This document shows, piece after piece, positions 24,577-39,527 of a DNA stretch of 59,816 nucleotides. A model generated the notes under the pieces. The model had not been told where the DNA came from, did not search any database, and was given only the letters and a program-made list of their open reading frames with translations. The stretch comes from Alicyclobacillus acidiphilus NBRC 100859 (GTDB taxonomy: Bacteria; Bacillota; Bacilli; Alicyclobacillales; Alicyclobacillaceae): assembly GCF_001544355.1 (NCBI RefSeq), contig NZ_BCQI01000018.1, positions 1 to 59,816 on the forward strand. The letters run 5' to 3'. Positions within the stretch are counted from its first letter, which is position 1, and every line of letters starts with the position of its first letter. A program made the position numbers and the translations under genes.

Positions 24577-25842
24577 TCAAGCCTCAGGTGGAGCTTGCCA
24601 AATGACGACGCCGTTTTGTCCGCCGAAACCGAAGGAAGATGACAGGGCACGCGTGATTTTTGCCTTGCGGCTGACATTTGGGACGACGTCCTTCGGGGCG
24701 AGTTCCTCTTTGTCGTGGCAGTTCAGTGTCGGCGGCAGTGTTTCGGTTCGGATGGCCTGGATGCAGGCGATACTCTCGATAGCACCCGCGGTTCCCAGCA
24801 TGTGACCGACTGCGCCTTTGATGGACGACACCGGGATTTCGTCGATGTGTTTGCCGAACGTTTCGCGAAGGGCTGCGGACTCGGCGAGATCGCCAGCCGG
24901 AGTCGCGGTTGCGTGCGCGTTGATATAGTCGATGTCATTGGCTGATAAGCCGGCGCTGCGCAAGGCTTTGGACATCGCGAGGGTTGCACCGCGGCCCTTC
25001 GGGTCCGGTGACGTTTCGTGGTATGCGTCGTTGGACGATCCGTAACCGACGAGCTCGGCATAGATGTGCGCCCCGCGCGCTTGCGCGCGTTCCAGGGTTT
25101 CCAGCACGAGCATTGCGGCGCCTTCCCCCATGACCATGCCTGTGCGGGCCTTGTCAAATGGCCGAGACCATTCGCTGAACGACTCCGGACCTTCGGTCGC
25201 GAGCGCGCCAGCGGCGCGCAATCCGGCAAGGATGGCGGGGCTGAACAGGCATTCCGCGCCGCCAGCCAGGACCATGTCCGCTTCGCCCAAGCGCAGCCAG
25301 TAGCTTGCTTCGCCGATTGCGTTGGCGGACGATGCGCATGCGGTCGAGTACGTCATCACGGAACCCTGGATGCCGTAGTGCATCGCGATGCTTGCGCCAG
25401 CGGCGTTCGGGATCGACTTTGGCACCAGGCGCGGGCCGACGCGCGACGAGCGGCCGGAGGACAGGCGCGCGGCACCGTCTTCCAGCGTTTGTACGCCGCC
25501 GAATGCGCAGCCGATGGAAATGCCGATGCGAGACGGATCATATTCGCCGCGCAAGGCCTCGGGGCTGGGGAAGCCCGCGTCCGCAAGCGCCTCCATGGCC
25601 GCGACCAATCCCATTTGCGTGAACCGATCGCTGTTTTGGATTTGCTTCTTATCGAGGTAAGGGGCTGGATCGAACGACGTTGCCGCCGCGACGACCGGGG
25701 CCCACCCTCGCAAATATTCGTCTTCTGTTTGGCGAATCGCTGACTGACCAGTGACGATTCCGTCCCAAAATATCGGCACCCCGACCCCGAATGGCGTAAC
25801 GGCACCCATTCCGGTGACCACGATGCGCGTTTGGTTCGCCAT
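24577..25842 (-). CDS. fabF: Beta-ketoacyl-ACP synthase II (FabF-type)
   Basis: A 421-residue KAS II. The catalytic triad is complete: Cys169 in YSTACASSA, His310 in INAHATAT and His347 in KGAVGHMLG, with the conserved Lys just before the last His. It condenses malonyl-ACP with a growing acyl-ACP. ATG 25842 follows GAGAGGAG; upstream in-frame codons are disfavoured. It is divergent from an enoyl-reductase-like SDR and shares with it a FapR-like palindrome at 25900. Its position with a private ACP and acyl-CoA genes, not in a standard fab operon, suggests a specialised fatty-acid role. Confidence 0.93.
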   Translation of the reverse strand: MANQTRIVVTGMGAVTPFGVGVPIFWDGIVTGQSAIRQTEDEYLRGWAPVVAAATSFDPAPYLDKKQIQNSDRFTQMGLVAAMEALADAGFPSPEALRGEYDPSRIGISIGCAFGGVQTLEDGAARLSSGRSSRVGPRLVPKSIPNAAGASIAMHYGIQGSVMTYSTACASSANAIGEASYWLRLGEADMVLAGGAECLFSPAILAGLRAAGALATEGPESFSEWSRPFDKARTGMVMGEGAAMLVLETLERAQARGAHIYAELVGYGSSNDAYHETSPDPKGRGATLAMSKALRSAGLSANDIDYINAHATATPAGDLAESAALRETFGKHIDEIPVSSIKGAVGHMLGTAGAIESIACIQAIRTETLPPTLNCHDKEELAPKDVVPNVSRKAKITRALSSSFGFGGQNGVVIWQAPPEA

Positions 25843-25896
25843 GTTTGTACTCCTCTCAACACCACGATAGTAGAGCAAGTGGTGAACACCCTTAAA

Positions 25897-25915
25897 TTTT
25901 ATGACTAGGTCATAG
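25897..25915. promoter_or_regulatory. FapR-like operator palindrome (site 1)
   Basis: ATGAC-TAG-GTCAT at 25901-25913 is a perfect inverted repeat in the fabF/SDR divergent gap, about 60 bases from the fabF start. Read on the minus strand, its core ACCTAGT resembles the core of the FapR box (TTAGTACCTGRTACTAA), the malonyl-CoA-responsive operator of lipid genes in Bacillus. Two related sites lie near 32.0 kb. A local TetR-type repressor is an alternative. Confidence 0.5.
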
Positions 25916-26050
25916 TTCGTTATACTTATGATACCATGTCACTGTGCACATTACGACGATTTCCTGGAGATAAGGGGCTTCAATCGCGTGTTTGAAGCGG
26001 ATCGGACGTGCTAAGATATGAAGATGTGCGATACATAGGGAGGTACAGAG

Positions 26051-26824
26051 GTGGGACAAACCGTTTCCAATCGATATCAGGATAAAGTGGTGTGCGTCAC
26101 AGGCAGTTCGCGCGGCATCGGACGCAAATTGGCATTGCGTTTCGCGGCCGAAGGAGCCGACGTCGTCATCAACTATTTCCGCAATGGGGACGCTGCGCGT
26201 GAGGTTGCTCGCGAAATCGAATCACTCGGTCGCCGGGTGTTGCTCGTCCGCGCAAACATGGCGCAGGAAGAGAAGATTGTCGCGATGTTTGACGAAATCC
26301 GCAACGCGTTTGGCAGGTTGGACGTGTTTATCCACAACGCGGCCTCTGGCCGCAATCGGTCCGCGATGGAGGTCGACACCAAAGGGTGGGACTGGACCAT
26401 GCAGGTCAACACGCGGGCCTTTCTCGTCGGCGCGCAGCAAGCGGCGCAGTTGATGCCGCAGACCGGAGGTGCGATGCTGGCCTTGTCTTCGTTTGGCTCG
26501 GATCACGTCTTTCCATACTATCTTTCCGTGGGTTCGAGCAAGGCGGCCCTGGAGTCCATTGTGCGGTATTTCGCGATTGAGCTGGCGGATCGGAAGATCA
26601 ATGTCAACGCCATCTCAGCAGGAGCTGTCCTGACCGATGCGCTCGACCATTTCCCGGACATGGACAAGACGCTTGCCGAGGTAGAACGGAAGATGCCGTA
26701 CCATCGGATGGTCACGCCGGACGACATCGCCAATCTCGCGCTGTTCCTGTGTTCGCCGGAAGCGGAGATGATCCGCGGCCAGACCATCAAAATCGACGGC
26801 GGAATCACACTGTTGGTGCCGTAG
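26051..26824 (+). CDS. FabL-type enoyl reductase (SDR with Y-x6-K)
   Basis: A 257-residue SDR. The nucleotide motif TGSSRGIG is near residue 18 and NAASG follows the fourth strand. The active site is Tyr157-x6-Lys164 (YYLSVGSSK) rather than YxxxK. The x6 spacing marks enoyl reductases such as FabI and FabL, so it should reduce an enoyl-ACP or enoyl-CoA. GTG 26051 follows GGGAGG. First gene of a three-gene operon with a thioesterase and FabG-like SDR. In this cluster it is a candidate for the 1-cyclohexenylcarbonyl-CoA reductase (ChcA-like) step; that is inference. Confidence 0.82.
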   Translation: MGQTVSNRYQDKVVCVTGSSRGIGRKLALRFAAEGADVVINYFRNGDAAREVAREIESLGRRVLLVRANMAQEEKIVAMFDEIRNAFGRLDVFIHNAASGRNRSAMEVDTKGWDWTMQVNTRAFLVGAQQAAQLMPQTGGAMLALSSFGSDHVFPYYLSVGSSKAALESIVRYFAIELADRKINVNAISAGAVLTDALDHFPDMDKTLAEVERKMPYHRMVTPDDIANLALFLCSPEAEMIRGQTIKIDGGITLLVP

Positions 26825-26853
26825 TCGACTCCGGATTGGGACGTGATGCAAAC

Positions 26854-27261
26854 ATGGACGGGTACAGGTTCAATCACGAGCTGCGCGTGCGCTGGTCCGA
26901 GGTGGACGGGCAGCTGATTGTATACAACGCCAACTATCTCGCGTATCTCGATCTCGCCTACTCCGAATATCTGCGACGCGAACTGAAGCTGGTCGAGGGC
27001 GTGCCGCCCACCGTGATCGTGAAATCGACGCTTGAGTTCAAGTCGCCGGCGAAATTCGACGACGTGCTGCAGATCTGGGTGAGAACGGTCCGCATCGGCA
27101 CGAAGAGTTTCACCGTCGAGTTCTGTATCACGCGGGACGGGGAAGTCATCTTCGAGGCTGAGACGATTTACGTATACATCAATCCTGACGGCACGTCCGC
27201 GCCGTTGCCGGACAAGTGGCGACAGGTGCTCGAGTCGTACGAACGGAGGGAACATCAGTGA
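26854..27261 (+). CDS. Hot-dog acyl-CoA thioesterase (YbgC/FadM-like)
   Basis: A 135-residue 4HBT thioesterase. RWSEVDGQLIVYNANYLAYL near residue 12 matches the YbgC active-site segment, with the catalytic Asp in EVDG. The ending is a typical IYVYINP strand. It should release acyl groups from CoA. ATG 26854 lacks a strong ribosome site; TTG 26836 is an alternative. It lies 29 bases after the FabL-like gene and its stop overlaps the next start (GTGA). In this cluster it might recycle CoA from stalled or wrong starter units. Confidence 0.85.
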   Translation: MDGYRFNHELRVRWSEVDGQLIVYNANYLAYLDLAYSEYLRRELKLVEGVPPTVIVKSTLEFKSPAKFDDVLQIWVRTVRIGTKSFTVEFCITRDGEVIFEAETIYVYINPDGTSAPLPDKWRQVLESYERREHQ

Positions 27262-28022
27262 GATTTGCAGGCAAGGTTGCCGTGGTAACGGGCGGCGCTG
27301 GCGGCATCGGCCGGGCGAGCGCGCGTTTGCTGGCTGAGCAAGGGGCGAAGGTCGTCGTGGGAGATCTCAATCAGGCCGCGGGGGAAGCCGTCGCAAGCGA
27401 CATTCGGGCCGCTGGCGGAGAGGCCGCCTTCGCTCCGGTCGACGTGGCGGACTATGAGAGCGTCGCGAGGCTCGTTCAGACGGCTGTCGAAACGTACGGC
27501 GGGATCGACATCATGTTCAACAACGCCGGCATCTTTGGCGACGGAAGTCAAAACGTGATCGATATGCCGATTGAGGCGTATCACCGCATGATTGCTATCA
27601 ACCAGCACGGCGTCTATTACGGGATTAAGGCCGCCGCTGAACAGATGCGTGCGCAAGGGCGCCCTGGCGTCATCATCAATACCGCGTCCATTTACGCGTA
27701 CATCGCCGATAAGAACCAGTTTCCTTATCACGCGAGCAAGGCGGCCGTGATCGGCATGACGAAGGCGGCTGCCCTGGAACTGGCCAGGTACGACATTCGG
27801 GTGGTGGCGATTGCGCCGGGGATGATCGACACTGGCTTGGTGGATCAGTGGCGGCAGGACGAGCGCGTCTGGAACACCATCCAGAAGGCGCACATGCGGC
27901 GCAAACTGGGTACGGCGGATCAGGTCGCGCAAGTGGTCGCGTTCTTGGCGAGCGACGAAGCGTCGTTCGTGAATGGACACGCTTATTTCGTCGACGATGG
28001 CGCCGCGTCGTTCAAGCGGTGA
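27258..28022 (+). CDS. Classical SDR oxidoreductase (FabG-like)
   Basis: A 254-residue short-chain dehydrogenase. It shows TGGAGGIGRASA near residue 12, NNAGIFG, a serine in NTASIYAY and the classical Tyr-x3-Lys site (YHASKAAV). The C-terminus YFVDDGAASF is usual for FabG-like proteins. GTG 27258 follows GGAGGG and overlaps the thioesterase stop. It could reduce a beta-keto group, or oxidise a ring hydroxyl in the proposed alicyclic pathway; sequence alone cannot decide. A terminator follows. Confidence 0.88.
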   Translation: MRFAGKVAVVTGGAGGIGRASARLLAEQGAKVVVGDLNQAAGEAVASDIRAAGGEAAFAPVDVADYESVARLVQTAVETYGGIDIMFNNAGIFGDGSQNVIDMPIEAYHRMIAINQHGVYYGIKAAAEQMRAQGRPGVIINTASIYAYIADKNQFPYHASKAAVIGMTKAAALELARYDIRVVAIAPGMIDTGLVDQWRQDERVWNTIQKAHMRRKLGTADQVAQVVAFLASDEASFVNGHAYFVDDGAASFKR

Positions 28023-28045
28023 ATTCAAGCGGCGAATACGACAAC

Positions 28046-28086
28046 GGCTGGGTTTCCCCCTCATCAAAGGGGACCCAGCCTTTCTT
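28046..28086 (+). terminator. Rho-independent terminator
   Basis: GGCTGGGT...CCCC pairs with GGGG.ACCCAGCC, giving a long stem that ends in TTTCTT. It closes the FabL-thioesterase-FabG operon; on the other strand it may also stop the DAHP synthase operon. Confidence 0.75.
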
Positions 28087-28154: not shown

Positions 28155-29183
28155 TTACACGTGCATCAGCACGTGGTCTTTCTCGCTGCCCGACAAGGCG
28201 TCCGAGATGAGGTTGACTTCGCGAACCATTTGGCCGAATTCGGCGAAGTCGATGGTCTGATCCGCATCGGACAAGGCTTTGGCCGGATTCGGATGGATCT
28301 CAACGATCACGCCGTGCGCGCCGGCGGCGATGCCAGCCCGGGCCATGGGACGGACGAACGCCGCTTTGCCGACGCCGTGCGATGGATCGACCACAATCGG
28401 CAGGTGCGACAAGTGCTTGACGACCGGTACCGCATTCAGGTCCATCGTGTTGCGCGTCGCTTTCTCGTACGTGCGAATGCCGCGCTCGCACAGGATGACG
28501 TTCGGATTGCCTTGCGCCAGGATGTACTCGGCAGACATCAGCCACTCTTCGACCGTTCCAGAGAGCCCGCGCTTCAACATGACCGGTTTCATCGACTTGC
28601 CAGCTTCGCGGAGCAGCGGGTAGTTTTGCATGTTGCGCGCGCCGATTTGCAGAATGTCGACGTACTCGGCAACGAGCGCCACCTTGTCTGGCTCCATGAC
28701 TTCCGAGATGATGGGGAGTCCTGTCTTCTCGCGCGCGATGGCCATCATCTTCAGGCCCTCTTCGCCATGTCCCTGGAACGAGTACGGGCTGGAGCGCGGT
28801 TTGAACGCGCCGCCGCGGAGCAGGTGACCTCCGAGGCGTTTGACAGCTTGTGCGATCTCGACAATCCCCTCGACCGACTCGACAGAACACGGGCCAGCCA
28901 TGATGGTCGGCGTTTGCCCGCCGATGATGTGGCCGCGAATGTCAATCACGGTATCTTCGGGATGAAATTCGCGGCTGGCCAGTGGATACGGGCTCTTGAT
29001 GGGCACGACCTGGACGACGCTCGGCATGGATGCGAGCTTTTCTGTGAGGGCAGCGTGATTTCCAGGGACGACGACGGTTGTCGGGCCGGCCGGATACGGC
29101 GTCGCACCGGCTTCCAATACGGTGTCCAACACGTGTTTCTTCTGGGCGTCCGTGACTTGTTGATTGAGAATGATGACCATCAT
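28155..29183 (-). CDS. DAHP synthase, type I-beta (AroF/AroG-like)
   Basis: A 342-residue 3-deoxy-7-phosphoheptulonate synthase that condenses PEP with erythrose 4-phosphate, the entry to the shikimate pathway. The N-terminal ~75 residues form a ferredoxin-like regulatory domain as in Thermotoga-type enzymes. The barrel carries AGPCSVES, RGGAFKPRSSPYSFQG, QIGARNMQNYPLL and VDPSHGVGKA. The ATG overlaps the stop of the acyl-CoA dehydrogenase before it (ATGA), so the two are co-translated. No other aromatic-biosynthesis gene is nearby. This supports a dedicated supply of shikimate to the lipid cluster. Confidence 0.93.
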   Translation of the reverse strand: MMVIILNQQVTDAQKKHVLDTVLEAGATPYPAGPTTVVVPGNHAALTEKLASMPSVVQVVPIKSPYPLASREFHPEDTVIDIRGHIIGGQTPTIMAGPCSVESVEGIVEIAQAVKRLGGHLLRGGAFKPRSSPYSFQGHGEEGLKMMAIAREKTGLPIISEVMEPDKVALVAEYVDILQIGARNMQNYPLLREAGKSMKPVMLKRGLSGTVEEWLMSAEYILAQGNPNVILCERGIRTYEKATRNTMDLNAVPVVKHLSHLPIVVDPSHGVGKAAFVRPMARAGIAAGAHGVIVEIHPNPAKALSDADQTIDFAEFGQMVREVNLISDALSGSEKDHVLMHV

Positions 29184-30334
29184 GCTTGGCTCCTTTCGCG
29201 TCCTGCGCGGTCGAGTACGTCTCGGGCTATCACCATTTTTTGAATCTCCGCGGTACCTTCTTCAAATCGCTGCATGCGCGCGTCCCGGTAAATCCGCTCG
29301 ATCTCGCTGCTCTTAAAGTAACCGGGTCCGCCGTGGATCTGGAGCGCTTTGTCTGTGACGCGCTGCAGCATCTCGGTGCCGAACAACTTGGCCATGGCGG
29401 CTTCCGTCGTGATCGGCAAACCAGCGTCGAATTTGTCGGCTGCGTAGAGAACGAGCTGCTTGGCTGCTTGGATGTCTGTCGCCATCTCGGCGAGCCACAT
29501 CTGAATGGTCTGCCGCTTGGCGAGCGGCTGGCCGAAAGTCACACGCTCCAGCGCGTGGTTCGCGGCCAGTTCGAGCGCGCGGCCGGCCGCGCCGACGCAC
29601 GTCATCCCGATGGCTGTTCGCGACGGGTCCAAAAAGCCGCGGAATGCGACTTCGAGGCCGTCCCCTTCGCCGCCGAGGCGATTGGCCGCGGGCACGCGGC
29701 AATCGGTCAACCTCAGGTGGCCGTGCGCGGTACCAGTGACACCCATCGCAGGCGGCATCAACTCGATGTCAAGGCCTGGGGCATCGCGCGGCACCAGCAG
29801 CGCGAGCGTCCCTTCGCTACCTGTCGAACCTTCGAGCCGGCAGAAGAGGAGAAAGAAATCGGCGACGTCGCTGAAGATGATCATCCATTTCTCGCCGTTC
29901 ACCAGGTATTCGTCGCCGACGCGCCGGGCCGTCGTCTTGATGTCGGCGCCAGAGCCGGAGTGAGGCTCGGTCAGCGTGAAGGTGACCTTGTGCTCCCCGC
30001 GAATGAACGGCAGGACGAACGTTTCCCGCTGTTCGGGCGTCGCTTTGCCGTCGATGGAGCGCCACAAACTGTTCATCACGTGGACGATGACGCGCATCGA
30101 TCCATGCATTCCGGCGAATTGCTCCAGCAACAGCAAGTACTCGCGAAACGACAGGCCAACGCCGCCATAGTCGCGCGGCGCCGCCAAACGCAGGTACCCT
30201 CGTTCGTTCAACTCCTGCCAAATCGCAGCCGGGACAGCGCCGGATTCCTCAATCCGCTTTGCCCAGACCGACGCGGGGCCGCGGACATACGACTTGACGT
30301 CCTCCATCCATTCGTCGAAGGTGCGGTCCTTCAC
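29180..30334 (-). CDS. Acyl-CoA dehydrogenase (1)
   Basis: A 384-residue FAD enzyme of the acyl-CoA dehydrogenase fold. TFTLTEPHSGSGAD is the flavin/substrate loop, FGQPLAKRQTIQ lies on the C-terminal helix bundle, and IYRDARMQRFEEGTAEIQ carries the expected catalytic Glu before Gly-Thr. GTG 30334 is chosen because GGGAGG lies seven bases upstream; ATG 30340 would be only one base from that site. It forms a minus-strand operon with an upstream acyl ligase and the downstream DAHP synthase. A role on cyclohexane or cyclohexene-carboxyl-CoA is inferred. Confidence 0.88.
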   Translation of the reverse strand: MKDRTFDEWMEDVKSYVRGPASVWAKRIEESGAVPAAIWQELNERGYLRLAAPRDYGGVGLSFREYLLLLEQFAGMHGSMRVIVHVMNSLWRSIDGKATPEQRETFVLPFIRGEHKVTFTLTEPHSGSGADIKTTARRVGDEYLVNGEKWMIIFSDVADFFLLFCRLEGSTGSEGTLALLVPRDAPGLDIELMPPAMGVTGTAHGHLRLTDCRVPAANRLGGEGDGLEVAFRGFLDPSRTAIGMTCVGAAGRALELAANHALERVTFGQPLAKRQTIQMWLAEMATDIQAAKQLVLYAADKFDAGLPITTEAAMAKLFGTEMLQRVTDKALQIHGGPGYFKSSEIERIYRDARMQRFEEGTAEIQKMVIARDVLDRAGRERSQA

Positions 30335-30358
30335 GGACATTCCTCCCAATTCATTCAC

Positions 30359-31975
30359 TCACTTGCTTCGCGGCTCGATTTTGCCTTCTCGCGTCAACTT
30401 TTCCGTAACGTCGTTGCGCAGCACGTATTTTTGAATCTTGCCGCTCGCGGTGCGGGGCATCTCATCGATGATCTCCAAGCGTTCCGGCCAGTAGATCTTC
30501 GCCATCTGATGCGAACCCAGGAAGTCGGTCACTTCCGATAGATCGAGCGACGCGTATCCTTCGTTCAGGACAACGTAGGCGCAGGCGCGTTCGCCCAGCC
30601 TGTCGTCCGGCATCGCGACGACCGCGACGTCCGCCACCGCCGGATGCTGATACAGCAGATTTTCGATCTCGACGACCGGAATTTTCTCGCCGCCGCGATT
30701 GACGACGTCCTTCTTGCGGCCGGTGATTCGCAGATACCCATCTTCGTCGATCACGGCGAGATCGCCCGTGTCGAAGAAGCCGTCTGGCGTGAATCCAGCC
30801 TCAAACCACTCGTGGTGGTGCAAGTACGTCGCGAACATGGCCGGCGTCCGGATTTGATAATTGCCTTCTTGGCCCGGCGGCAATACGTTGCCATCGTCGT
30901 CCACAACGCGGATCTGCATGCCGTCGATGGCGCGGCCATCCGTGCCCCACAATTTTTCCACCGGATCGCCCGGTCGGCCCACGGTCACCAAACAACCCTC
31001 GGTCGATCCCCACGCGCCGACGATGCTGCAACCCAGCTTTTCGCGCGCCGTCTGTGCCAATTGCCGAGGAATCGCGGCGCCAGTCGCGATGAACAGCCGC
31101 AGTCCGCGCGGAGGTCGTTCGCACTTCGACAGGTCGGAGAGAAACGGCATCGCGGCCTGAACGAAGGTGGCACCGTGCGTCTCGATGGCGTCGCGCGCCC
31201 TGTCGACATTCCAAATCGCTTGGTAGACGCCGCAGCCGCCGATATAGAACGACACGAGCATGCCGTAGAGGAACCCGGTCTGATGGGCGAGCGGCGAAGG
31301 CACCCAAATGTTGTCGTCCTCCGTCAGCCCAAGCGTCGTCGTGTGCGCCTGCAAGGCGTTCGACAGGCTCTGGTGGGTATGGAGCACACCTTTCGGCTCA
31401 CCCGTCGTGCCTGAGGTGTACAGGAGCTGCGAATAGCTGTCCGCCGTCGCGCGCCGTCCGCGCAAGACGTCCATGGCCTGGCTGTCGGCCAACGCCGTTT
31501 CCGGCGCAATCAGTCCGCCGAGCGTGTTCACGGTTGGATCGACCGTGCGGCTGTCGATCACGACGACGTGTTCAATTCCCTGCACTTCGGCCTGAACTTG
31601 GTCCGCGAGGACGCGATAGTCGAAGCGGCGGAACTCATCTGGAATGACGAGCAGACGGCTGCCGGAGGATTGCATGATAAATTTCACTTCGCGTTCGCGA
31701 AGCGACGGCAGCAAGGGGCATGGCACAGCGCCAATTCGCCACAATGCCACGGTCAGGACGATGAACGGCCAACCGCTCGGCAACTGATACGCAACGGCTT
31801 CGCCTGGTTGGACCCCGAGGTCCAGCAGGCCGAGCGCGCAGCGATTGGCGAGGCGATCCAATTCGCCGTATGTGAGTGTCGTCGTGGTGGTCTCACCGAG
31901 ATCGACGACAGCGAGTTTATGCGTATGCTGCCGGATAGCTTCATCGAGTTTGTCTAGAAAGAGCGGAGAAGACAT
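30359..31975 (-). CDS. AMP-forming acyl/aryl-CoA ligase (1)
   Basis: A 538-residue member of the ANL adenylating family. The P-loop is YTSGTTGEPKGVLHTH (near residue 190), the A5 motif GAWGSTEG, the A7/A8 region FDTGDLAVIDEDGYLRITGR with KKDVVNRGG, and the catalytic Lys lies in RTASGKIQKY near the end. It resembles benzoate/dihydroxybenzoate and cyclohexanecarboxylate ligases more than long-chain FadD, judged by eye. ATG 31975 follows AAGGAAGG. It is transcribed away from the FadH-like gene and shares FapR-like sites with it. It may activate shikimate or an alicyclic acid. Confidence 0.87.
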   Translation of the reverse strand: MSSPLFLDKLDEAIRQHTHKLAVVDLGETTTTTLTYGELDRLANRCALGLLDLGVQPGEAVAYQLPSGWPFIVLTVALWRIGAVPCPLLPSLREREVKFIMQSSGSRLLVIPDEFRRFDYRVLADQVQAEVQGIEHVVVIDSRTVDPTVNTLGGLIAPETALADSQAMDVLRGRRATADSYSQLLYTSGTTGEPKGVLHTHQSLSNALQAHTTTLGLTEDDNIWVPSPLAHQTGFLYGMLVSFYIGGCGVYQAIWNVDRARDAIETHGATFVQAAMPFLSDLSKCERPPRGLRLFIATGAAIPRQLAQTAREKLGCSIVGAWGSTEGCLVTVGRPGDPVEKLWGTDGRAIDGMQIRVVDDDGNVLPPGQEGNYQIRTPAMFATYLHHHEWFEAGFTPDGFFDTGDLAVIDEDGYLRITGRKKDVVNRGGEKIPVVEIENLLYQHPAVADVAVVAMPDDRLGERACAYVVLNEGYASLDLSEVTDFLGSHQMAKIYWPERLEIIDEMPRTASGKIQKYVLRNDVTEKLTREGKIEPRSK

Positions 31976-31997
31976 GGCCGCCTTCCTTTCATTCCGT

Positions 31998-32133: not shown

Positions 32134-34182
32134 GTGGCCGCAACGTCATTACATAGTCGTCCTCGACAGTACCCGGCGTTAGGGAAACCAGGGCGTATTG
32201 GAACGTTGAATTTGCCGCATCGCATGATCATGGGATCGATGCATATGGGTTTGGAAGGGCGCAGAGACAAGCTGCAGCAACTCGCTGAGTTCTATCGAGC
32301 CCGTGCGCGCGGCATGGCGGCGCTCATCATCACCGGCGGTGCGGCTGTGGTGCAGGAAGGCGGCGCGGACGAGATGTTCGTGTTGACGAACGACGACGAC
32401 TGCCGCATGCTCGCCGAGTTGGCCGCTGCCGTCCACGAAGTCGGCGGCAGAATCGCGCTTCAGTTGTTCCATTCGGGGCGCTACGCCGTGTCGAGTGAAA
32501 TTGGCATGCAGCCAGTCGCACCCAGCGCGATCCCGTCCAGGTTGACGCGCGAGACGCCGCGAGCCTTGACCACGGATGAGGTGGAAGCGACGATTGAGGC
32601 TTTTGGCGAGGGGGCTCTTCGGGCGAAGGAACTGGGGTTCGACGCCGTGGAAGTGATGGGTTCCGAAGGATATCTGCTCAACCAGTTTCTCTCGCCGTTG
32701 ACGAACCAGCGCGACGACCAATACGGTGGCGATTTCCCCCGGCGAATGCGGGCTTCGCTGGACGTCGTCCAGGCCATCCGCAAGCATGCGGGCGACGATT
32801 ACCCAGTCATCTTCCGGATGTCTGGCGCCGATTTGATGCCAGGCAGCACGACGATGGAGGAGACATTGGCGTATGCGCAGGCGTTGGAAAGGGCAGGCGT
32901 CGACGCGCTCAACATCGGGATCGGATGGCACGAGTCGCGGGTCCCCACGGTGCAGCAGGTGGTGCCGCGCGGGGGATTTACGGCCATTGCCGGCAAGATT
33001 CGCGAAGCCGTAAAGGTTCCCGTGATTGGTGCGAACCGCCTGAACGTTCCGGAAGTCGCCGAACGGGCTGTCGCCGAAGGCTATCTCGATTTCGTCGCGC
33101 CCGCCCGGCCATGGCTGGCCGATGCGGAGTACGGAAAGAAAATTTTGGCTGGCGATCGCGCCGCGCTGAACGTCTGCATCGCGTGCAATCAGTCTTGTCT
33201 GGATCACACCTTGGTGCAGCCGCACCTTCCTGTCAGTTGTCTGGTCAACCCACAGGCCGGGCAAGAACTGCTGTGGCCAATCGCGAAGGCTTCGACTTCT
33301 CGGCGGGTGGCCGTGGTTGGCGGCGGTCCAGCAGGGCTGGAAGCGGCCGTGACAGCCGCGCGACGGGGCCACAAGGTGGTATTGTTTGAACGTTCGGCGA
33401 GTCTTGGCGGACAATTTCGGATGGCTGGAAAAATTCCAGGGAAGTACGAATTCTACGAAACGATTCGGTACTATACTGAAATGCTTGAACGGCTCGAAGT
33501 GACTGTTACAATGCAGACAGAACCTTCGCTTGAGGAACTGGCTGATTTCGACGACGTCATCGTGGCGACGGGCGTTGTCCCGCGCATTCCGGATCTTCCC
33601 GGCATCGATTTGCCGCACGTCGCCACGTATGCGCAGATCCTTCAGGGAGAAGTCGCCGTCGGACGGAAGATCGCCATCATCGGCGCTGGCGGCATTGGCT
33701 GCGATGTGTCGACGTACCTGGCCGAAAGCAGTCACGCGACGCCAGACGCGGTTGGCTATTTCCGATCCCAATCGCTCCCCGAACCTGCCCCGCTCAGCCG
33801 CGACATTACCGTCCTGGCCCGCAGCGACAAGTACGGCAATGGCATTGGTCGGAGCACGCGTTGGGTCGTCAAGCAGGAAATGAGCCGATTGGGTGTGCGC
33901 GTGATGACCGACGTGCAGTTCGTGCAAATCGTCCCTGACGGCGTTCGTGTCGAAGTGGCGGGGGAGCAGAAGACAATCGAAGCAGATCAGGTCATTCTCT
34001 GCGCAGGGCAGGAACGTGCGCCGTTGTTCTCGGACGCGGACGCGTCGGCTTCGGACAATCTGTCCGAGGCTTTGGCCGGACGAGCCCGCGTGCACATCGT
34101 GGGAGGGGCTCGGGAAAGTCGGGGCATCAACGCGGCGCGGGCCATTCGCGAGGCGTTCGAAGCGGCGTATCGGATCGATTGA
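32134..34182 (+). CDS. FadH-like 2,4-dienoyl-CoA reductase (OYE/NADH:flavin oxidoreductase family)
   Basis: A 682-residue iron-sulfur flavoenzyme. Residues ~20-340 form an FMN barrel of the old-yellow-enzyme type (LFHSGRYA, VEVMGSEGYLLNQFLSPLTN). A [4Fe-4S] motif CIACNQSCLDH plus a distal Cys follows near residue 350. The C-terminal half binds FAD and NAD(P) (VAVVGGGPAGLEAA). This layout equals E. coli FadH and related dienoyl reductases. GTG 32134 follows AAAGGAGA. It heads the large plus-strand operon. In the proposed pathway it would reduce cyclohexadiene-carboxyl-CoA intermediates; family members also act in ordinary beta-oxidation. Confidence 0.88.
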   Translation: MAATSLHSRPRQYPALGKPGRIGTLNLPHRMIMGSMHMGLEGRRDKLQQLAEFYRARARGMAALIITGGAAVVQEGGADEMFVLTNDDDCRMLAELAAAVHEVGGRIALQLFHSGRYAVSSEIGMQPVAPSAIPSRLTRETPRALTTDEVEATIEAFGEGALRAKELGFDAVEVMGSEGYLLNQFLSPLTNQRDDQYGGDFPRRMRASLDVVQAIRKHAGDDYPVIFRMSGADLMPGSTTMEETLAYAQALERAGVDALNIGIGWHESRVPTVQQVVPRGGFTAIAGKIREAVKVPVIGANRLNVPEVAERAVAEGYLDFVAPARPWLADAEYGKKILAGDRAALNVCIACNQSCLDHTLVQPHLPVSCLVNPQAGQELLWPIAKASTSRRVAVVGGGPAGLEAAVTAARRGHKVVLFERSASLGGQFRMAGKIPGKYEFYETIRYYTEMLERLEVTVTMQTEPSLEELADFDDVIVATGVVPRIPDLPGIDLPHVATYAQILQGEVAVGRKIAIIGAGGIGCDVSTYLAESSHATPDAVGYFRSQSLPEPAPLSRDITVLARSDKYGNGIGRSTRWVVKQEMSRLGVRVMTDVQFVQIVPDGVRVEVAGEQKTIEADQVILCAGQERAPLFSDADASASDNLSEALAGRARVHIVGGARESRGINAARAIREAFEAAYRID

Positions 34183-34271
34183 GCCAGGGCCAGGGACAGA
34201 GTCAGCGATGGACGCGGATCGCACAGGCATCGGCGTCTTCATACATAATTGTTCGAGAGGGGTTTGGACAG

Positions 34272-35048
34272 GTGTTACTTGAAGGAAAAAAGGCGTTTGT
34301 CACCGGCAGCAGCCGAGGGATTGGGCGGGCGATTGCCATCGCCATGGCCAAGCAGGGTGCGGACGTGGTGATTCACTATCGCAGGGAACCTGACGAAGCT
34401 GAGGCAACTGCGGCAGTCGTTCGCCAGTTGGGGCGCGAGGCAATCGTCGTCAAGGCGGAATTGGAGAGTCAGGAGGAGTTGAACGCGGCGTTCGACGTGA
34501 TCGAACAGACGTGGGGCAGGCTGGACGCGTTCGTCGCAAACGCGGCGGCCAGCGCCTTCAAGCCCATCGAAGCGCTGAAAGACTACCATCTCGATCGCAC
34601 CTACAAAGTGGTCCTCCACAGTTTCGTGTTCGCCGCGCAGCGATGCCTGCCTCTGATGGAAGGCCGAGGCGGCCGCATCATCGCCATGTCGAGCATGGGG
34701 AGCACGTTCACCTTGCCGCGGTATTCGACGCTCGGTTCCGCCAAGGCGGCGATGGAAGCGATGACACGCTATCTGGCCGCTGAATTTGGTCCCAAGGGCA
34801 TCACGGTCAACGCCATCAACCCCGGTGTGGTCGATACGGAGTCGGCCCGCTTTTACGGCGGCGACAACTACGACGACTATTGCCGGGACGTCATCGCTCA
34901 CACGCCGCTTGGCCGCCTCGCGACGCCGGAAGACGTCGCCGACACGGCCGTATTTCTGGCGAGCGACTTGTCCAGGTTCCTGACCGGCCAAGTGATTCGT
35001 GTCGACGGCGGCTTGACGCTGTCCACCGGGGGATTTGAAAGCTTTTAA
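34272..35048 (+). CDS. Second FabL-type enoyl reductase (SDR with Y-x6-K)
   Basis: A 258-residue SDR. TGSSRGIGRAIA lies near residue 11 and the active site is Tyr151-x6-Lys158 (YSTLGSAK), the same spacing and numbering I recall for Bacillus subtilis FabL. It is therefore expected to reduce an enoyl thioester with NADPH. GTG 34272 follows GAGAGGGG; a longer frame upstream has no ribosome site. It lies between the FadH-like gene and the ACP gene. Two such reductases within 8 kb suggest different substrates, for example a ring enoyl-CoA and a chain enoyl-ACP; that split is inference. Confidence 0.83.
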   Translation: MLLEGKKAFVTGSSRGIGRAIAIAMAKQGADVVIHYRREPDEAEATAAVVRQLGREAIVVKAELESQEELNAAFDVIEQTWGRLDAFVANAAASAFKPIEALKDYHLDRTYKVVLHSFVFAAQRCLPLMEGRGGRIIAMSSMGSTFTLPRYSTLGSAKAAMEAMTRYLAAEFGPKGITVNAINPGVVDTESARFYGGDNYDDYCRDVIAHTPLGRLATPEDVADTAVFLASDLSRFLTGQVIRVDGGLTLSTGGFESF

Positions 35049-35147
35049 AGCGTCGGCCCAGATTGCGCGACAGCCATCTGGCGAAAGCATCCGAGCGAAG
35101 AATTTGCTAGGATAGAGACTGGATGAATGTAAAGGAGAAGATTGTAC

Positions 35148-35405
35148 ATGGCAGAGGCGTTAAACAGAGAACAAATCGAAGAACGGGTCCGCAAAGTCGT
35201 GGTCAACCAGTTGCAGGTTGAACCGGCGGACGTCAAGTCGGAAAGCTTGTTCGTGGACGATCTCGGTGCCGACTCCCTGGATCTGACGGAATTGGCCGTC
35301 GCCTTCGAGGATGAGTTCGAGATTGAAATTCCTGAGGCTGATTTCGGCCAATTGTCCACTGTGGCTGGGGTCGTAGCTTATATCAGCGGACGCTTGGCTC
35401 AATGA
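35148..35405 (+). CDS. Acyl carrier protein (cluster-specific)
   Basis: An 85-residue ACP. The phosphopantetheine site is Ser43 in LGADSLDLTE, and the protein is acidic with four predicted helices. ATG 35148 is ten bases after AAAGGAG. It sits in an acyl-CoA-metabolism operon, not next to plsX/fabD/fabG as the housekeeping acpP does, so it is probably a second, specialised carrier. Two perfect hairpins follow it. It could carry the starter-derived chain elongated by the FabF encoded 10 kb away. Confidence 0.92.
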   Translation: MAEALNREQIEERVRKVVVNQLQVEPADVKSESLFVDDLGADSLDLTELAVAFEDEFEIEIPEADFGQLSTVAGVVAYISGRLAQ

Positions 35406-35443: not shown

Positions 35444-35455
35444 CGTAAAGAACGT

Positions 35456-35489
35456 GTCCGAAAAGTGCCGGTATCGACACTTTTCGGAC
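35456..35489 (+). promoter_or_regulatory. Second perfect hairpin before the acyl ligase
   Basis: GTCCGAAAAGTG (35456-35467) pairs with CACTTTTCGGAC (35478-35489) around a 10-base loop, ending 25 bases before the ligase start. It could be an RNA structure controlling ligase translation or an operator. Its partner is unknown. Confidence 0.5.
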
Positions 35490-35513
35490 AACCTCACAGA
35501 GGGGGTTGCCAGA

Positions 35514-37169
35514 TTGTTTGACTTTGTTGGAAGAACGTTGTCAGAAGCCCGTGCGCAGGCTTATCTGGATAAAGGTTACTGGACGCAGGAGTCGTTTGTC
35601 GACGTCCTGGAGGCGGATGTCAAGGCGTATCCGGAATTCGTCCATCAGGATGAGGAGCGCTCCGTGACCTACGCCGAATTGTGGGCGGAAATTGAATCCG
35701 TCGCCGCTTCGTTGTACGAGATGGGCATTCGCAAGGGCGACACCGTCGCGTTGCAATTGCCAAACGCGCTCGATTATGTCGTCGGCGTGTTCGCGGCTGC
35801 TCGAATTGGCGCCATCGGCGTGTCGCTGCAAATCGATCTCGGTCGTCAGGCGATTCACTCAAGTCTCCAGACGTCCAAAGCGAAGGTCTGGATCATCGCC
35901 GATCATTTCCGCGGACAACCGCTGTACGAAATGGCCGAGGAGATTGCGGCGGATCTGCCCGCGCTCAAACAGGTGGTGCTGCAAGGCGATCCTGAACGGG
36001 CGCCGGAGGGCGCGGTGACGTTTGCGAGTCTGCGATCGACCGGAAAAAAACTGACGGACGCGGAATTGGCGGACAATCGCCCAGGTCCGTTGGACGCTTT
36101 TCTAATGGTGTTTACATCGGGGACGACGGGTTCCCCCAAAGGCGTCGTTCACCTGCACGCCAATTACTTGTGGGCGTCCCGCGCCTACGCCAAAAATTTT
36201 GGCTACGAACCGGGGGACGGCGTTTTGTGCCTGGCGCCAATCTGCCATCAGACTGGCATGCTGGCGGGCGTGATGATGACCATCGCGAGCGGCGGCCGAA
36301 TCATGTTGCTGGAGCGGTTTTCGGCATCCCGCGTGATCAAGTGGATCGAACAATACAAACCGGCTTACCTCGTTGGCGCGCCGCCGCATGTGATCCACGT
36401 GACAAATGCGCCAAACCTGAAGGAAGCGGATACGAGCAGCGTCAAGTTGTTCATTTACGCTGGAGCGCCTGTTCCGAGTTCGGTGCTGGAGAGGCTGCAG
36501 CGCGAAGGCGGCATCAAAGTAGGCGGCATGTTCGGTTGGTCGGAAGGCTTTTTGGCGACGGCGACTCGCCCGGACGATCCGCTGGAGGCGCTCTCGTCCA
36601 CGGTCGGCTTCGCCATTGAGGGCACGGAGGTGCGCCTCGTCGACGAAGACGGCAACGATGTCAAGCCGGGCGAACCGGGAGAGATGTGGTCCCGTGGTCC
36701 GAACTTCAGCGCAGGGTACTACGAAAATCCGACTGCGGCCCATCGCCAGTGGGACGCGGAAGGCTGGTTCCACTCCGGCGACGTGCTGCGGCAAGACGAA
36801 AACGGCCGATATCGGTTCATCGCTCGCGCGGACGACATCATCAACCGCGGCGGCACGAAAATTGACCCGAAGACCATCGAAGACGCCATCGCGCAACACC
36901 CGGCAGTCGAGAATGTCGTGGTCGTCGGCGCCCCGGACGAGACATTGGGCCAACAGACCGTCGCTTGCGTCATCCTGCGCGAAGGGCTGGAACCGTTCAG
37001 CCTGCCCGAACTGCGCGACTTTTTGGGCAAGCAGGGATTGGCGAAGTTCCAGTATCCGGATCGGCTGGAGTTCATGACCGAGTTCCCGACGACACACTCT
37101 GGGAAGATCAAGAAGAAGGATCTGCGCGAACGTTTTCGCCTGGAAGCGGAAGCCAAAGGCATCGTATAA
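35514..37169 (+). CDS. AMP-forming acyl/aryl-CoA ligase (2)
   Basis: A 551-residue ANL-family ligase. The P-loop FTSGTTGSPKGVVHLH lies near residue 200, GWSEG is the A5 motif, FHSGDVLRQDENGRYRFIAR and DDIINRGGTKI form the hinge, and the catalytic Lys is in THSGKIKKKDL. It resembles DhbE/EntE-like aryl-acid ligases in layout. The start is placed at TTG 35514, eight bases after GAGGGGG; an upstream GTG lies inside the hairpin. Two related ligases in one cluster may activate an early substrate such as shikimate and a late one such as cyclohexanecarboxylate. That is inference. Confidence 0.87.
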   Translation: MFDFVGRTLSEARAQAYLDKGYWTQESFVDVLEADVKAYPEFVHQDEERSVTYAELWAEIESVAASLYEMGIRKGDTVALQLPNALDYVVGVFAAARIGAIGVSLQIDLGRQAIHSSLQTSKAKVWIIADHFRGQPLYEMAEEIAADLPALKQVVLQGDPERAPEGAVTFASLRSTGKKLTDAELADNRPGPLDAFLMVFTSGTTGSPKGVVHLHANYLWASRAYAKNFGYEPGDGVLCLAPICHQTGMLAGVMMTIASGGRIMLLERFSASRVIKWIEQYKPAYLVGAPPHVIHVTNAPNLKEADTSSVKLFIYAGAPVPSSVLERLQREGGIKVGGMFGWSEGFLATATRPDDPLEALSSTVGFAIEGTEVRLVDEDGNDVKPGEPGEMWSRGPNFSAGYYENPTAAHRQWDAEGWFHSGDVLRQDENGRYRFIARADDIINRGGTKIDPKTIEDAIAQHPAVENVVVVGAPDETLGQQTVACVILREGLEPFSLPELRDFLGKQGLAKFQYPDRLEFMTEFPTTHSGKIKKKDLRERFRLEAEAKGIV

Positions 37170-37248
37170 CGAGCTAGGACGGTCCTGAGAGGGAAGATGG
37201 CCTTGCAGGCCATCGCCGTTCTGCGAGGGAGCAGCGAGGAGGACAAAC

Positions 37249-38475
37249 ATGAGCATTTTGAACGCGTCGGAACTTGGAACCATCGCGCCGAATCGACCGC
37301 ACTATGACGAGGCTCTGGTTCGCCGGGCGAATGAGATCCGGAATCGAGTGATTCAATTCCGTCAGGAAGAGGCTGGCGAATGGGGTCAGCAAATTGAACG
37401 GGATGAAAAAATCCCGGAAGCCTTGTGGGTGCGCTTGCGGGAACTTGGATTCCACAAATTGACGCAGCCGCAGTGGGTTGGCGGCGAAGGTTTGCCACTT
37501 GGGCTGTATTTTCCGATTCTCGAAGAGATCGCCCACTGCCACGGTACGATTCGCATGATGTTTCACGCCTACAACAGCATCTGGCGCACGGTTGGACAAG
37601 GTACAAAGGAGCAGCAGAAGTACTGGCTGACGAAGATGGTGAACGAGGGCGCCCTCGTCGCGTTTGCGTTGACAGAACCGGACAACGGTACGGGGATCGA
37701 CTTGCGGACGACAGCCACCTTCGAAAACGGGAAATACGTGCTCAACGGCCGAAAGCATTTGATCACGTTCGCGGAAGAGGCGAGTGTGCTTGCCGTGATC
37801 GCGAAAACCGAAGGCGGAGCGGGCCGCGGCGGGTTGACCGCGTTTCTCGTGCCGCAGGGCCGCGCTGGCATGAAACTGGAGCCCATGGCGCACATGATGG
37901 GCGACAAGGGCTGCTCGCACGCGGTCATTACGTTTGACAACTGCGAAGTCTCGGAAGACGAAGTGCTTGGCGAAGTCGGTGAAGGATTCGGCGTCGCCGT
38001 GCGCGGTTTTCTGGATCAAAGTCGCGCGTGTATCGCCCAAAGCGCCGTTGGCCTCGCCCAAGAAGCGCTTGATGTGACGATGACCTTCGTCCGCCAGCGG
38101 GTGACCTTCGGCAAACCCATCGGCAGCAGACAGGCCGTCCAGATGCGCTTGGCGGAGATGCAGATAGCGGTGCAGGCGGCTCGTCTTCTGTGCCTCGACG
38201 CGGCATACAAGTACGACGCTGGCGAAGATATTTCTCTGGAAGCGGCGATGACCAAGGCGAATGCCATTCGCATGGTTGGCGACGTCACCGACGGGGCGCT
38301 CGCCTTGTTCGGCGGGATCGGCTACAGTGTGACCAGTCCGGTGGAGCGTTTGTACCGCGACGCGAGATCGCTCTGGTTTGAAGAAGGCACGGCAGAGGTC
38401 CAGAAGATGACCATCGCGGAGCAGATGCTGACCAACGCCCGCAAACGGGAGCGGGCCGCGCGGCAGGCAGAGTGA
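37249..38475 (+). CDS. Acyl-CoA dehydrogenase (2)
   Basis: A 408-residue acyl-CoA dehydrogenase. The flavin loop is AFALTEPDNGTGIDLRTTA, the helix-bundle motif is VTFGKPIGSRQAVQMRLAEM, and the catalytic Glu is in LWFEEGTAEVQK. It is a paralogue of the enzyme at 29180-30334. ATG 37249 follows GGAGGA. The 79-base gap before it has no gene. Its stop overlaps the alcohol dehydrogenase start. Related FAD enzymes in alicyclic pathways introduce or remove ring double bonds; which direction applies here is unknown. Confidence 0.9.
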   Translation: MSILNASELGTIAPNRPHYDEALVRRANEIRNRVIQFRQEEAGEWGQQIERDEKIPEALWVRLRELGFHKLTQPQWVGGEGLPLGLYFPILEEIAHCHGTIRMMFHAYNSIWRTVGQGTKEQQKYWLTKMVNEGALVAFALTEPDNGTGIDLRTTATFENGKYVLNGRKHLITFAEEASVLAVIAKTEGGAGRGGLTAFLVPQGRAGMKLEPMAHMMGDKGCSHAVITFDNCEVSEDEVLGEVGEGFGVAVRGFLDQSRACIAQSAVGLAQEALDVTMTFVRQRVTFGKPIGSRQAVQMRLAEMQIAVQAARLLCLDAAYKYDAGEDISLEAAMTKANAIRMVGDVTDGALALFGGIGYSVTSPVERLYRDARSLWFEEGTAEVQKMTIAEQMLTNARKRERAARQAE

Positions 38476-39527
38476 TGAGGGCGGTTCAATTCAGCCCGGA
38501 ATATGGGCTGCAATACGTCGATATGCCACGTCCCGATTTGCGGCCGGACGAGGTGTTGCTGCGTGTGGACGCCTGCGGTGTTTGCGGCAGTGATCGACAG
38601 GTCATCAAGGGAGAATCGGCGCCCCAGGGAACGGCTTTCCCGGTCATTCTCGGCCACGAGGTGGCTGGCACCGTGGTCGACTGCGGCGATCACGGTGCAG
38701 AGTGGCCTGTGGGCACGACGGTGATCGTCCATCCGTTCACCGCGTGCGGCACGTGTGCGGCGTGCGCGCGCGGCCAAGACAACCTGTGTATCCGCCAGGG
38801 GTGCATTGGCTACACGCGCCCGGGTGGATTCGCCGAATTCGTCGCTGTGCCTGTGGCCCAACTCGTCCGTCGGCCGGAGACGCTCGACCCAGCGGGTGCG
38901 GCCCTGCTCGTCGACGCGTATGCGACCCCATACCGCGCCCTGATGGAGGCCGAGATGGAGCCAGGCCGCACAGTGCTCGTGATTGGCACCGGGGGCCTCG
39001 GCCTCGCCGCGTTGCAGCTGCTGCAGGCCTGGCCCGCCGCGTCTGTTGGGGCTGTGAGCCGCCGTGCGGAAGGCGTCGCTATCGCGGAGTCGTTCGGCGC
39101 GCATCTTGCCGTCACCACGGAAGACGACCCTCGGAGTGTCGCGCGAAGTCTGCGTCGGTGGTCTGGAGCCGGGGGAATCGACATCGTGATCGATACCGTG
39201 TCGGATCGCTTGAGCGTCGCGTTTGCCGTGGATGTCGTCCGCAATGGCGGTACCATCGTCTGCGTCGGCATGTCCGCGGACAGCGTCGAGGTGCCGATGG
39301 CGAAGCTGGTGCGCCGCGGGATCCGCGTGATTGGCAGCTACGCATCGCGGAAAGCGGATGTCGAATCCATGGTCCGGTGGGTCGCTGAGGGTCGGTTCGA
39401 TCCGGCGAAATTGATTGGTGAACAGTTGGACCTGAGGTCGGTTGCGGCGGCGTTTTCGCCAGCGAGATCGGCCGGGCGTGTCGTCGTCTTGCCGAATCAG
39501 GCGGATGTCGGTGCGCAAGGCGGCTGA
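38475..39527 (+). CDS. Zinc-dependent alcohol dehydrogenase (MDR family)
   Basis: A 350-residue medium-chain dehydrogenase. The catalytic zinc ligands are Cys in DACGVCGSD and the GHEVAG motif. Four structural-zinc Cys lie in CGTCAACARGQDNLC. The NAD site is VIGTGGLGLAALQ. ATG 38475 overlaps the previous stop (TGATG). Enzymes of this family include the 6-hydroxycyclohex-1-ene-1-carbonyl-CoA dehydrogenase of anaerobic benzoate degraders, so oxidation of a ring hydroxyl on a CoA thioester is a reasonable hypothesis. Sequence alone does not settle the substrate. Confidence 0.88.
   Translation: MRAVQFSPEYGLQYVDMPRPDLRPDEVLLRVDACGVCGSDRQVIKGESAPQGTAFPVILGHEVAGTVVDCGDHGAEWPVGTTVIVHPFTACGTCAACARGQDNLCIRQGCIGYTRPGGFAEFVAVPVAQLVRRPETLDPAGAALLVDAYATPYRALMEAEMEPGRTVLVIGTGGLGLAALQLLQAWPAASVGAVSRRAEGVAIAESFGAHLAVTTEDDPRSVARSLRRWSGAGGIDIVIDTVSDRLSVAFAVDVVRNGGTIVCVGMSADSVEVPMAKLVRRGIRVIGSYASRKADVESMVRWVAEGRFDPAKLIGEQLDLRSVAAAFSPARSAGRVVVLPNQADVGAQGG

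Follow-up and report, generated by a model that had tools for sequence, protein, structure and literature searches.

A candidate gene set for the cyclohexanecarboxyl-CoA primer of omega-cyclohexyl fatty acids in Alicyclobacillus acidiphilus, beside a separable acyl-ACP cassette

Introduction

Which genes supply the ring primer of omega-cyclohexyl fatty acids in Alicyclobacillus? The question is raised by a 13-gene region (positions 24577–39527) of contig NZ_BCQI01000018.1 of Alicyclobacillus acidiphilus NBRC 100859, the contig being analyzed here as a single stretch of 59,816 nucleotides (the window). A preliminary description, made from the DNA letters, had read the whole region as one pathway to cyclohexanecarboxyl-CoA (CHC-CoA), the starter of these lipids. 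From its sequence and that of its relatives, the region instead consists of two modules: module A, comprising a DAHP synthase, an acyl-CoA dehydrogenase family protein (ACD1), an AMP-forming ligase (LIG1), a FadH-like dienoyl-CoA reductase (OYE), and a ChcA-like reductase (fabL2), together with a classical short-chain dehydrogenase/reductase (SDR2) and a thioesterase; and module B, comprising an acyl carrier protein (ACP), a second ligase (LIG2), a second acyl-CoA dehydrogenase family protein (ACD2), a zinc alcohol dehydrogenase (ADH), fabL1, and fabF. For module A the proposed pathway holds up, and we put the probability at roughly 0.88 that it turns shikimate into CHC-CoA to prime omega-cyclohexyl fatty acids; the reading of the whole stretch as one pathway is not supported.

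Results

Match to Streptomyces CHC-CoA genes

In the lactomycin and phoslactomycin clusters, six genes are counted for CHC-CoA in the text of PMC5852498, and Table 2 of that paper lists an AMP-dependent ligase (lmP1/plmJK), a CoA dehydrogenase (lmP2/plmL), a cyclohexenylcarbonyl-CoA reductase (lmP3/ChcA), and an NADH:FMN oxidoreductase (lmP4/plmM). Three Streptomyces loci found by the OYE of module A show the order EPSPS-ligase fusion, acyl-CoA dehydrogenase (ACD), short-chain dehydrogenase/reductase (SDR), OYE, the order in which plmJK, plmL, ChcA, plmM are printed. Module A matches this CHC-CoA set. The preliminary description had suggested a comparison with phoslactomycin-type CHC genes, which came out in its favor: the window proteins closest to the ligase, ACD, and OYE of Streptomyces humidus are LIG1 (46.8%), ACD1 (53.6%, versus 40.3% for ACD2), and OYE (44.9% over nearly the full length, with the Cys motif retained). 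Searched against the genome of the window, the ligase half of the S. humidus fusion scored 478.5 bits with LIG1 and 235.6 with the next protein, LIG2, and the EPSPS half matched only the AroA on contig C15 (144.3 bits, 28%). The S. humidus ChcA is nearly equidistant from the two FabL-type enzymes, with fabL2 nominally best (42.8%) and fabL1 at 38.0%; a quick SDR tree, which includes a long FabI branch, gave three clades, ChcA, fabL1, and fabL2, with ChcA joining rather fabL1. Neighbors of the S. humidus locus are a protein associated with AHBA synthesis (350.5 bits against a cut-off of 246.65) and a DAHP synthase of class II (414.3 bits in Pfam, under the NCBIfam cut-off), which we take to fit an ansatrienin-type cluster.

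Distribution within the family and fatty acids of carriers

OYE and LIG1 were used to search 41 genomes of the family, 15 of which belong to the genus of the window. An OYE orthologue was found in 24 genomes, the full-length ones being 56–72% identical to the window OYE, and the remaining 17 contained only generic relatives at no more than 37%, leaving a clean gap. LIG1 independently picked out the same 24 of 41 genomes (58–77%), with all other matches at or below 44%, and every genome of the genus (15/15) was positive for both proteins. When 398 genomes were drawn evenly across the class, LIG1 passed its threshold (E 1e-150) in 19, all from this family. Inside the family and beyond it, genomes with module A keep LIG1, ACD1, OYE, and fabL2 as a group, and the gene arrangement is for that reason not attributed to chance.

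Carriers of module A include A. sacchari, A. hesperidum, A. sendaiensis, A. mali, A. mengziensis, A. montanus, and the type strain of A. acidocaldarius (G001), which carries both modules. The fatty acids of that strain include omega-cyclohexane C17:0 at ∼51% and C19:0 at ∼33% (PMC3035248). Gene presence was compared with lipid content, as had been proposed at the outset, for module-A carriers only: Table 1 of PMC5023266 covers four of the seven named carriers (A. acidocaldarius, A. hesperidum, A. sacchari, and A. sendaiensis) and gives each of them as omega-cyclohexane (4/4), so on the carriers' side the comparison agrees with the proposal.

Relatives outside the family

Named genomes were scanned with the OYE alignment, and the best 80 loci were kept. 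LIG1-like (at least 42%) and ACD1-like (at least 52%) genes lie nearby at 22 of these, specifically six loci from Alicyclobacillus, two from Bacillota metagenome-assembled genomes (MAGs), six from Eremiobacterota MAGs, two from Arthrobacter, three from Streptomyces, and one each from Sporolactobacillus sp. THM7-7, Pullulanibacillus camelliae, and Paenibacillus sp. yr247; the other 58 of the best 80 are without this set, one of them (L125) having weak matches only (36%). The Arthrobacter loci (L108, L112) contain an EPSPS-ligase fusion, ACD, and OYE, and no fabL/ChcA-like SDR in the stretch scanned. The Eremiobacterota loci (L076, L077, L078, L082, L100, and the broken L080) hold a ligase, ACD, fabL-like SDR, and FadH-like OYE together, and in all but L080 (5/6) the locus further contains a fused EPSPS-like part, a DAHP synthase, and FabF; from this gene content, cyclohexyl lipids or metabolites are predicted in an uncultured phylum. 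Neither LIG2 nor ACD2 was found at the CHC-type loci of other Bacilli and Eremiobacterota within the 12–22 kb scanned. FadH-like proteins 46–50% identical to OYE also occur without other CHC genes in Brevibacillus and other Bacilli (L066, L068, L069, L071, and others), and are probably ordinary dienoyl-CoA reductases.

FapR-type operator sites

The operator fapO of the Bacillus subtilis fapR promoter is TTAGTACCTAGTCTTAA (PMC12281612), and three 17-mers resembling such operators were found in the region, two in the divergent LIG1/OYE promoter and one between fabF and fabL1 (Table 1). The ACCTRGT core occurs two to three times in the LIG1/OYE promoter of all 15 genus genomes, and the longer ACCTRGTMNTA occurs twice in the 59.8-kb window, once per divergent cluster promoter, versus 0.04 expected. 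When 29 loci were scored with a 17-mer fapO consensus, the best fapO-like 17-mer fell inside the 450-base core promoter at 21 of them, versus 3.5 expected by area, and two scrambled consensus controls placed it there at 3/29 and 2/29 loci. Nineteen of the 21 are the 15 genus genomes, G027, G033, Sporolactobacillus, and Pullulanibacillus, and the other two are low-score ties; the genus genomes are related, and their sites are not 15 independent events. FapR is encoded in the genome of the window (215.9 bits, cut-off 183) and in 39 of the 41 family genomes. Given these sites, the cluster may be induced in step with general fatty-acid synthesis. An inverted-repeat search of the intergenic regions gave nothing useful. 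FapR-operator-like sites also lie upstream of the EPSPS-like genes of Sporolactobacillus sp. THM7-7 (L063, 5821–5837, 14/17) and Pullulanibacillus camelliae (L065, 5777–5793, 13/17), both of which have a CHC-type set.

Weighing the alternatives

The CHC-CoA starter pathway is preferred because of the Streptomyces match, the distribution in the family, the lipid of A. acidocaldarius, and the FapR-type sites. Several observations weigh against it. The comparison of genes with lipids covers module-A carriers, that is, the positive side, and the SDR tree does not single out fabL2 over fabL1 as the ChcA orthologue. The plm/lm set has an EPSPS-like domain, whereas no EPSPS-like gene is present in the window cluster and the sole AroA over the cut-off lies on C15. 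The remainder concern the operator sites. Nine relatives were scanned for the ACCTRGT core in the fabF/fabL1 interval and none has it there, so that the site in the window is possibly a chance match; eight of the 29 loci have their best fapO-like 17-mer outside the core promoter; in the window alone, a score of 13/17 was reached by 14 of 100 shuffles; and ACCTRGTNNTA is not enriched genome-wide, with 11 matches (five well inside frames, two in this cluster) versus 54 for a backwards control. The promoter of fapR is said to conserve the operator site (PMC5052256), and for the 14 of 30 loci, all from the genus, at which the 260 bases before fapR could be placed, the core is absent throughout (0/14), eight of them showing a half-site-like stretch by eye.

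Could the cluster instead degrade cyclohexanecarboxylate or an aromatic acid? LIG1 matches the CHC-CoA ligase family TIGR03208, ACD1 and ACD2 match the CHC-CoA dehydrogenase families TIGR03207/NF043006, and SDR2 matches 4-hydroxycyclohexanecarboxylate dehydrogenases, but these catabolic scores fall under the cut-offs (LIG1, 495.7 versus 792.3; ACD1, 174.3 versus 575.35; SDR2, 198.7 versus 350), and no crotonase or ring hydrolase appears among the best 25 families for each of the 13 proteins. A DAHP synthase stands within the operon, and the FapR-type sites and plm-type relatives indicate synthesis, all of which makes a degradative role very unlikely. A supply of CHC starter to a secondary metabolite rather than to the membrane lipid would agree with the published set and the S. 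humidus locus, both of which sit in polyketide-type clusters; however, no modular polyketide synthase is among the genes scanned in or beside the region, the set is present in 15/15 genus genomes and in a strain with ∼84% of omega-cyclohexane acids, and FapR-type sites are present, so that this possibility appears slimmer still.

The EPSPS-like gene and its probable loss

An EPSPS-like gene is present in all 15 non-family CHC loci examined (L080 left out), either separate (Sporolactobacillus, Pullulanibacillus, Paenibacillus, and MAG L138) or fused to the ligase (Streptomyces, Arthrobacter, Eremiobacterota, and MAG L067). Within the family, a second aroA-family gene over the aroA cut-off lies close to LIG1 in five genomes (G019, G033, G034, G036, and G040). 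An unlinked second AroA was sought in the 15 genus genomes and none was over the cut-off, each genome having exactly one AroA above it plus weaker matches; G026, G027, G028, and G037 show the same picture, so that 19 of the 24 module-A genomes are without the EPSPS-like gene. The preliminary description had missed this gene, which relatives carry and which is absent from this genus. A quick tree of four proteins was built from 29 loci (22 family genomes and seven outside rows; G004 and G028, split over contigs, were left out). On this tree, no fewer than three changes are required to account for the pattern of presence and absence. Repeated loss is the simpler reading, since all seven outside rows have the gene, and G040 sits within a group of genomes that lack it.

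Twenty-one loci were tried for a residue alignment, and 20 cluster EPSPS-like proteins (the protein being absent at L056) were aligned with the AroA of E. coli and with 30 housekeeping AroA from the family. K22, R124, and K411 are named as glyphosate/PEP-site residues in PMC3411725. By E. coli numbering, all 20 cluster proteins retain K22, R27, G96, R124, S170, Q171, Y200, D313, K340, E341, R344, H385, and R386, and all 20 carry the changes S23 to Y, N94 to S, S169 to L, S197 to E, N336 to P or H, and K411 to I. Only S23 and S169 are clean differences, kept in 30/30 housekeeping AroA and altered in 20/20 cluster proteins; S197 and N336 are not clean, with Q/R and H/E at these positions in housekeeping rows; in some of these rows S170 is replaced by A, K340 by H, or K411 by I, or Y200 falls in a gap. 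In the E. coli structure, S169, S170, and S197 presumably bind the 3-phosphate of shikimate 3-phosphate and S23 the carboxylate. S169L and the acidic residue at 197 are the main grounds for supposing that the cluster enzyme may use an unphosphorylated acceptor.

The type strain of A. acidocaldarius makes the lipids without the EPSPS-like gene, which is therefore dispensable for the outcome, and the step done elsewhere by the enzyme must here be bypassed or taken by another protein. It is conceivable, if doubtful, that two chemical versions of the CHC pathway exist, an ancestral one with the EPSPS-like enzyme and one without it in Alicyclobacillus proper, where module B may stand in. The ancestral enzyme may enolpyruvylate or otherwise activate unphosphorylated shikimate or its CoA ester to give a leaving group; Alicyclobacillus proper probably dropped it by two or more separate losses; and the ligase and redox enzymes of module B may have taken over the removal of the first hydroxyl. 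Such a scheme predicts that Eremiobacterota and some non-family Bacilli make cyclohexyl lipids or metabolites and that FapR controls the CHC set in two or more of those Bacilli. Counting against it, G028 is without both the EPSPS-like gene and LIG2, and position 197 is non-serine in housekeeping AroA rows too.

Module B as a separable cassette

Module B is a separable acyl-ACP cassette, with a putative role in CHC formation. The ACP-LIG2-ACD2-ADH unit, often with fabL1 and sometimes with fabF, lies directly 3′ of fabL2 throughout the genus and also in G026, G027, and G037; in G019, ACP-LIG2-ACD2 lies beside module A in opposite orientation, and a further ACP-LIG2-ADH-fabL1 set is found ∼20 kb off. 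Of the 19 module-A genomes that lack the EPSPS-like gene, 18 have the unit directly after fabL2, and none of the five that possess the gene does. This pattern is suggestive of recruitment of module B but rests on two or three evolutionary events.

Might module B have nothing to do with cyclohexyl lipids and be a chance neighbor of module A, its ligase loading an acid on the ACP, ACD2 and ADH modifying it, and fabF and fabL1 extending and reducing it? We give this serious weight, at somewhat less than even odds. LIG2 orthologues (51–68%) occur in six of the 17 genomes without module A, accompanied by ACP-LIG2-ACD2-ADH-fabL1 in G018 and G029 and by shorter versions in G015, G024, and G025 (G023 is known by LIG2 only). 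No CHC gene is among the ten neighbors scanned in G018, G024, and G029; module A and the unit are apart in G033, G034, G036, and G040; and G028 has module A and no LIG2. The earlier claim of a single pathway is not supported in view of LIG2 without module A, of the four genomes where the unit stands apart, and of its partial duplication in G019. Against an independent cassette stand the LIG2 orthologues (at least 51%) in 23 of 24 module-A genomes (all but G028), versus 6 of 17 others, and the position of the unit directly after fabL2 noted above.

Two further ideas on module B were tried and set aside. That it replaces the EPSPS-like gene by mutual exclusion, an idea raised at first by the 20-kb loci, is weakened by LIG2 in G033, G034, G036, and G040, which have that gene, by the two LIG2 genes of G019, and by G028, which has neither. 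A phenylacetate (cycloheptyl) link was rejected as a marker, as the PaaA/PaaC family occurs in 31 of the 41 family genomes, widely also where LIG2 is absent; a PaaA/PaaC match is absent in the other 10 (G000, G004, G009, G011, and six more), among which is the window's own genome. Loci L199, L200, L201, L202, and L203 hold module B genes (ACP, LIG2, and others) in members of the family that have no module A. An aldo/keto reductase gene adjoins fabF in the window (23419–24318) and also in G029 (L201, 12780–13853), which has module B without module A.

Gene content and layout

The region is filled by 13 genes, each of which is open throughout and matches the protein family expected of it (Table 1), which confirms the gene content first reported, including the Y-x6-K motif of both enoyl-reductase SDRs. 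On the minus strand lie fabF and then LIG1, ACD1, and the DAHP synthase, overlapping or abutting; on the plus strand lie fabL1, thioesterase, and SDR2, followed by OYE, fabL2, ACP, LIG2, ACD2, and ADH. LIG1 and OYE are divergent, with 119 bases between them, and SDR2 is close to module A in many family genomes. Unrelated genes flank the region, namely those of sugar-ABC permeases on the left side and of prolyl-tRNA synthetase on the other. In the genome, which comprises 3.86 Mb in 165 contigs, there are also a housekeeping FabF on C17 and a FabI-type enoyl reductase (motif YNVMGVAKA) on C7, and the fabF and FabL-type enzymes of the cluster are accordingly extra copies.

Table 1. Genes and FapR-operator-like sites of the region, by position in the window
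Feature	Position	Strand	Remarks
fabF, beta-ketoacyl-ACP synthase II	24577..25878	-	Module B partner; motifs TACAS, HATATP, GHMLG; likely start ATG 25842, read from sequence
FapR-operator-like 17-mer	25899..25915	-	12/17; between fabF and fabL1
fabL1, FabL-type enoyl reductase	26051..26824	+	Y-x6-K; 372.7 versus FabL cut-off 328
4HBT thioesterase	26749..27261	+	Family match; probable start ATG 26854
SDR2, classical SDR	27216..28022	+	Probable start GTG 27258, overlapping thioesterase stop
DAHP synthase, shikimate pathway entry	28155..29183	-	Module A; 464.9 versus cut-off 335
ACD1, acyl-CoA dehydrogenase family	29180..30358	-	Module A; PlmL counterpart
LIG1, AMP-forming acyl-CoA ligase	30359..32014	-	Module A; counterpart of PlmJK ligase half; possible start 31975, read from sequence
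FapR-operator-like 17-mer, TTCATACCTGGTCATAT	32000..32016	+	12/17; divergent LIG1/OYE promoter; overlaps annotated LIG1 5′ end
Second FapR-operator-like 17-mer, TTAACACCTGGTATTGA	32046..32062	-	13/17; closely similar site in 15/15 genus genomes
OYE, FadH-like 2,4-dienoyl-CoA reductase	32134..34182	+	Module A; PlmM counterpart; Cys motif for 4Fe-4S; best PDB match 2,4-dienoyl-CoA reductase 1ps9 (E 8e-156)
fabL2, ChcA-like enoyl-CoA reductase	34179..35048	+	Module A; Y-x6-K; C-terminal GGFESF; 247.2, under FabL cut-off 328; start possibly 34272
ACP	35142..35405	+	Module B; DSL motif
LIG2, second AMP-forming acyl ligase	35454..37169	+	Module B
ACD2, second acyl-CoA dehydrogenase family protein	37249..38475	+	Module B
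Zinc alcohol dehydrogenase (ADH)	38472..39527	+	Module B

Discussion

In the route that we infer, the cluster DAHP synthase would push flux into the shikimate pathway, and LIG1 would convert shikimate to its CoA thioester. The ring hydroxyls would be lost by eliminations in an alternation of dehydration and reduction, with the FadH-like OYE reducing dienoyl-CoA stages, ACD1 contributing a further flavin-dependent redox or isomerisation activity, and fabL2 running the ChcA reaction on a 1-cyclohexenylcarbonyl-type CoA at the enoyl stages. The resulting CHC-CoA would prime type II fatty-acid synthesis, and the ACP-LIG2-ACD2-ADH unit of module B may load or elongate the primer. If the FapR-type sites work, FapR would bind the divergent LIG1/OYE promoter and keep it repressed as long as malonyl-CoA is low; a rise in malonyl-CoA would then free the production of ring primer and extender at the same time. 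What the sequences themselves show is homology and domain correspondence, co-conservation, operator-like sites, and the lack of the EPSPS-like gene. We take these reactions and their order from the Streptomyces pathway, presumed to hold here also where they go beyond what is laid out in PMC5852498.

The enzyme set as such is already known from Streptomyces CHC starters. In the excerpts used here of the literature on the family (PMC10562698, PMC3035248, PMC8060452, PMC5023266, PMC8909780, PMC11123200), no genes are assigned to the omega-cyclohexyl pathway, and among the matches listed from the open-access literature there is no paper assigning the CHC enzyme set in Alicyclobacillus. New as far as seen are the correspondence between Alicyclobacillus and Streptomyces, the EPSPS loss, the separable module B, the FapR-type sites, and the candidate producers in Eremiobacterota and other Bacilli. 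The cluster provides a short, testable gene list for omega-cyclohexyl lipids and a candidate marker of genomes able to make them, uncultured Eremiobacterota included, and it poses a defined puzzle, namely the loss of the first hydroxyl without an EPSPS-like enzyme.

Comparison with known systems

Several described systems resemble the cluster in part. It shares ligase and dehydrogenase families with the anaerobic degradation of CHC (ali/bad), and differs in scores that stay under the respective cut-offs and in having no hydratase or ring-cleaving enzyme among the families listed for the 13 proteins. With the FapR regulon of Bacillus and Staphylococcus, as portrayed in PMC5052256, PMC3536700, and PMC12281612, it has in common 17-bp inverted-repeat-like sites and a fapR gene in the genome; unlike in that regulon, the target here is a ring-primer pathway, the sites are putative, and the promoter of fapR itself is without a full site in this genus. 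The CHC-type clusters of other Bacilli and Eremiobacterota share LIG1, ACD1, OYE, and a fabL-like SDR with the window, and have in addition the EPSPS-like protein, separate or ligase-fused, that the window lacks.

Closest is the plm/lm set of Streptomyces, whose four enzyme types recur in module A. The window differs from it in its divergent operons, its DAHP synthase, thioesterase, SDR2, ACP, and FabF partners, and its FapR-type promoter sites, and the product would be a lipid, whereas that of plm/lm is a polyketide. Because the EPSPS-like part was tested for and is absent, the cluster is filed as a variant without full membership, which from its gene content would work like the plm-type set.

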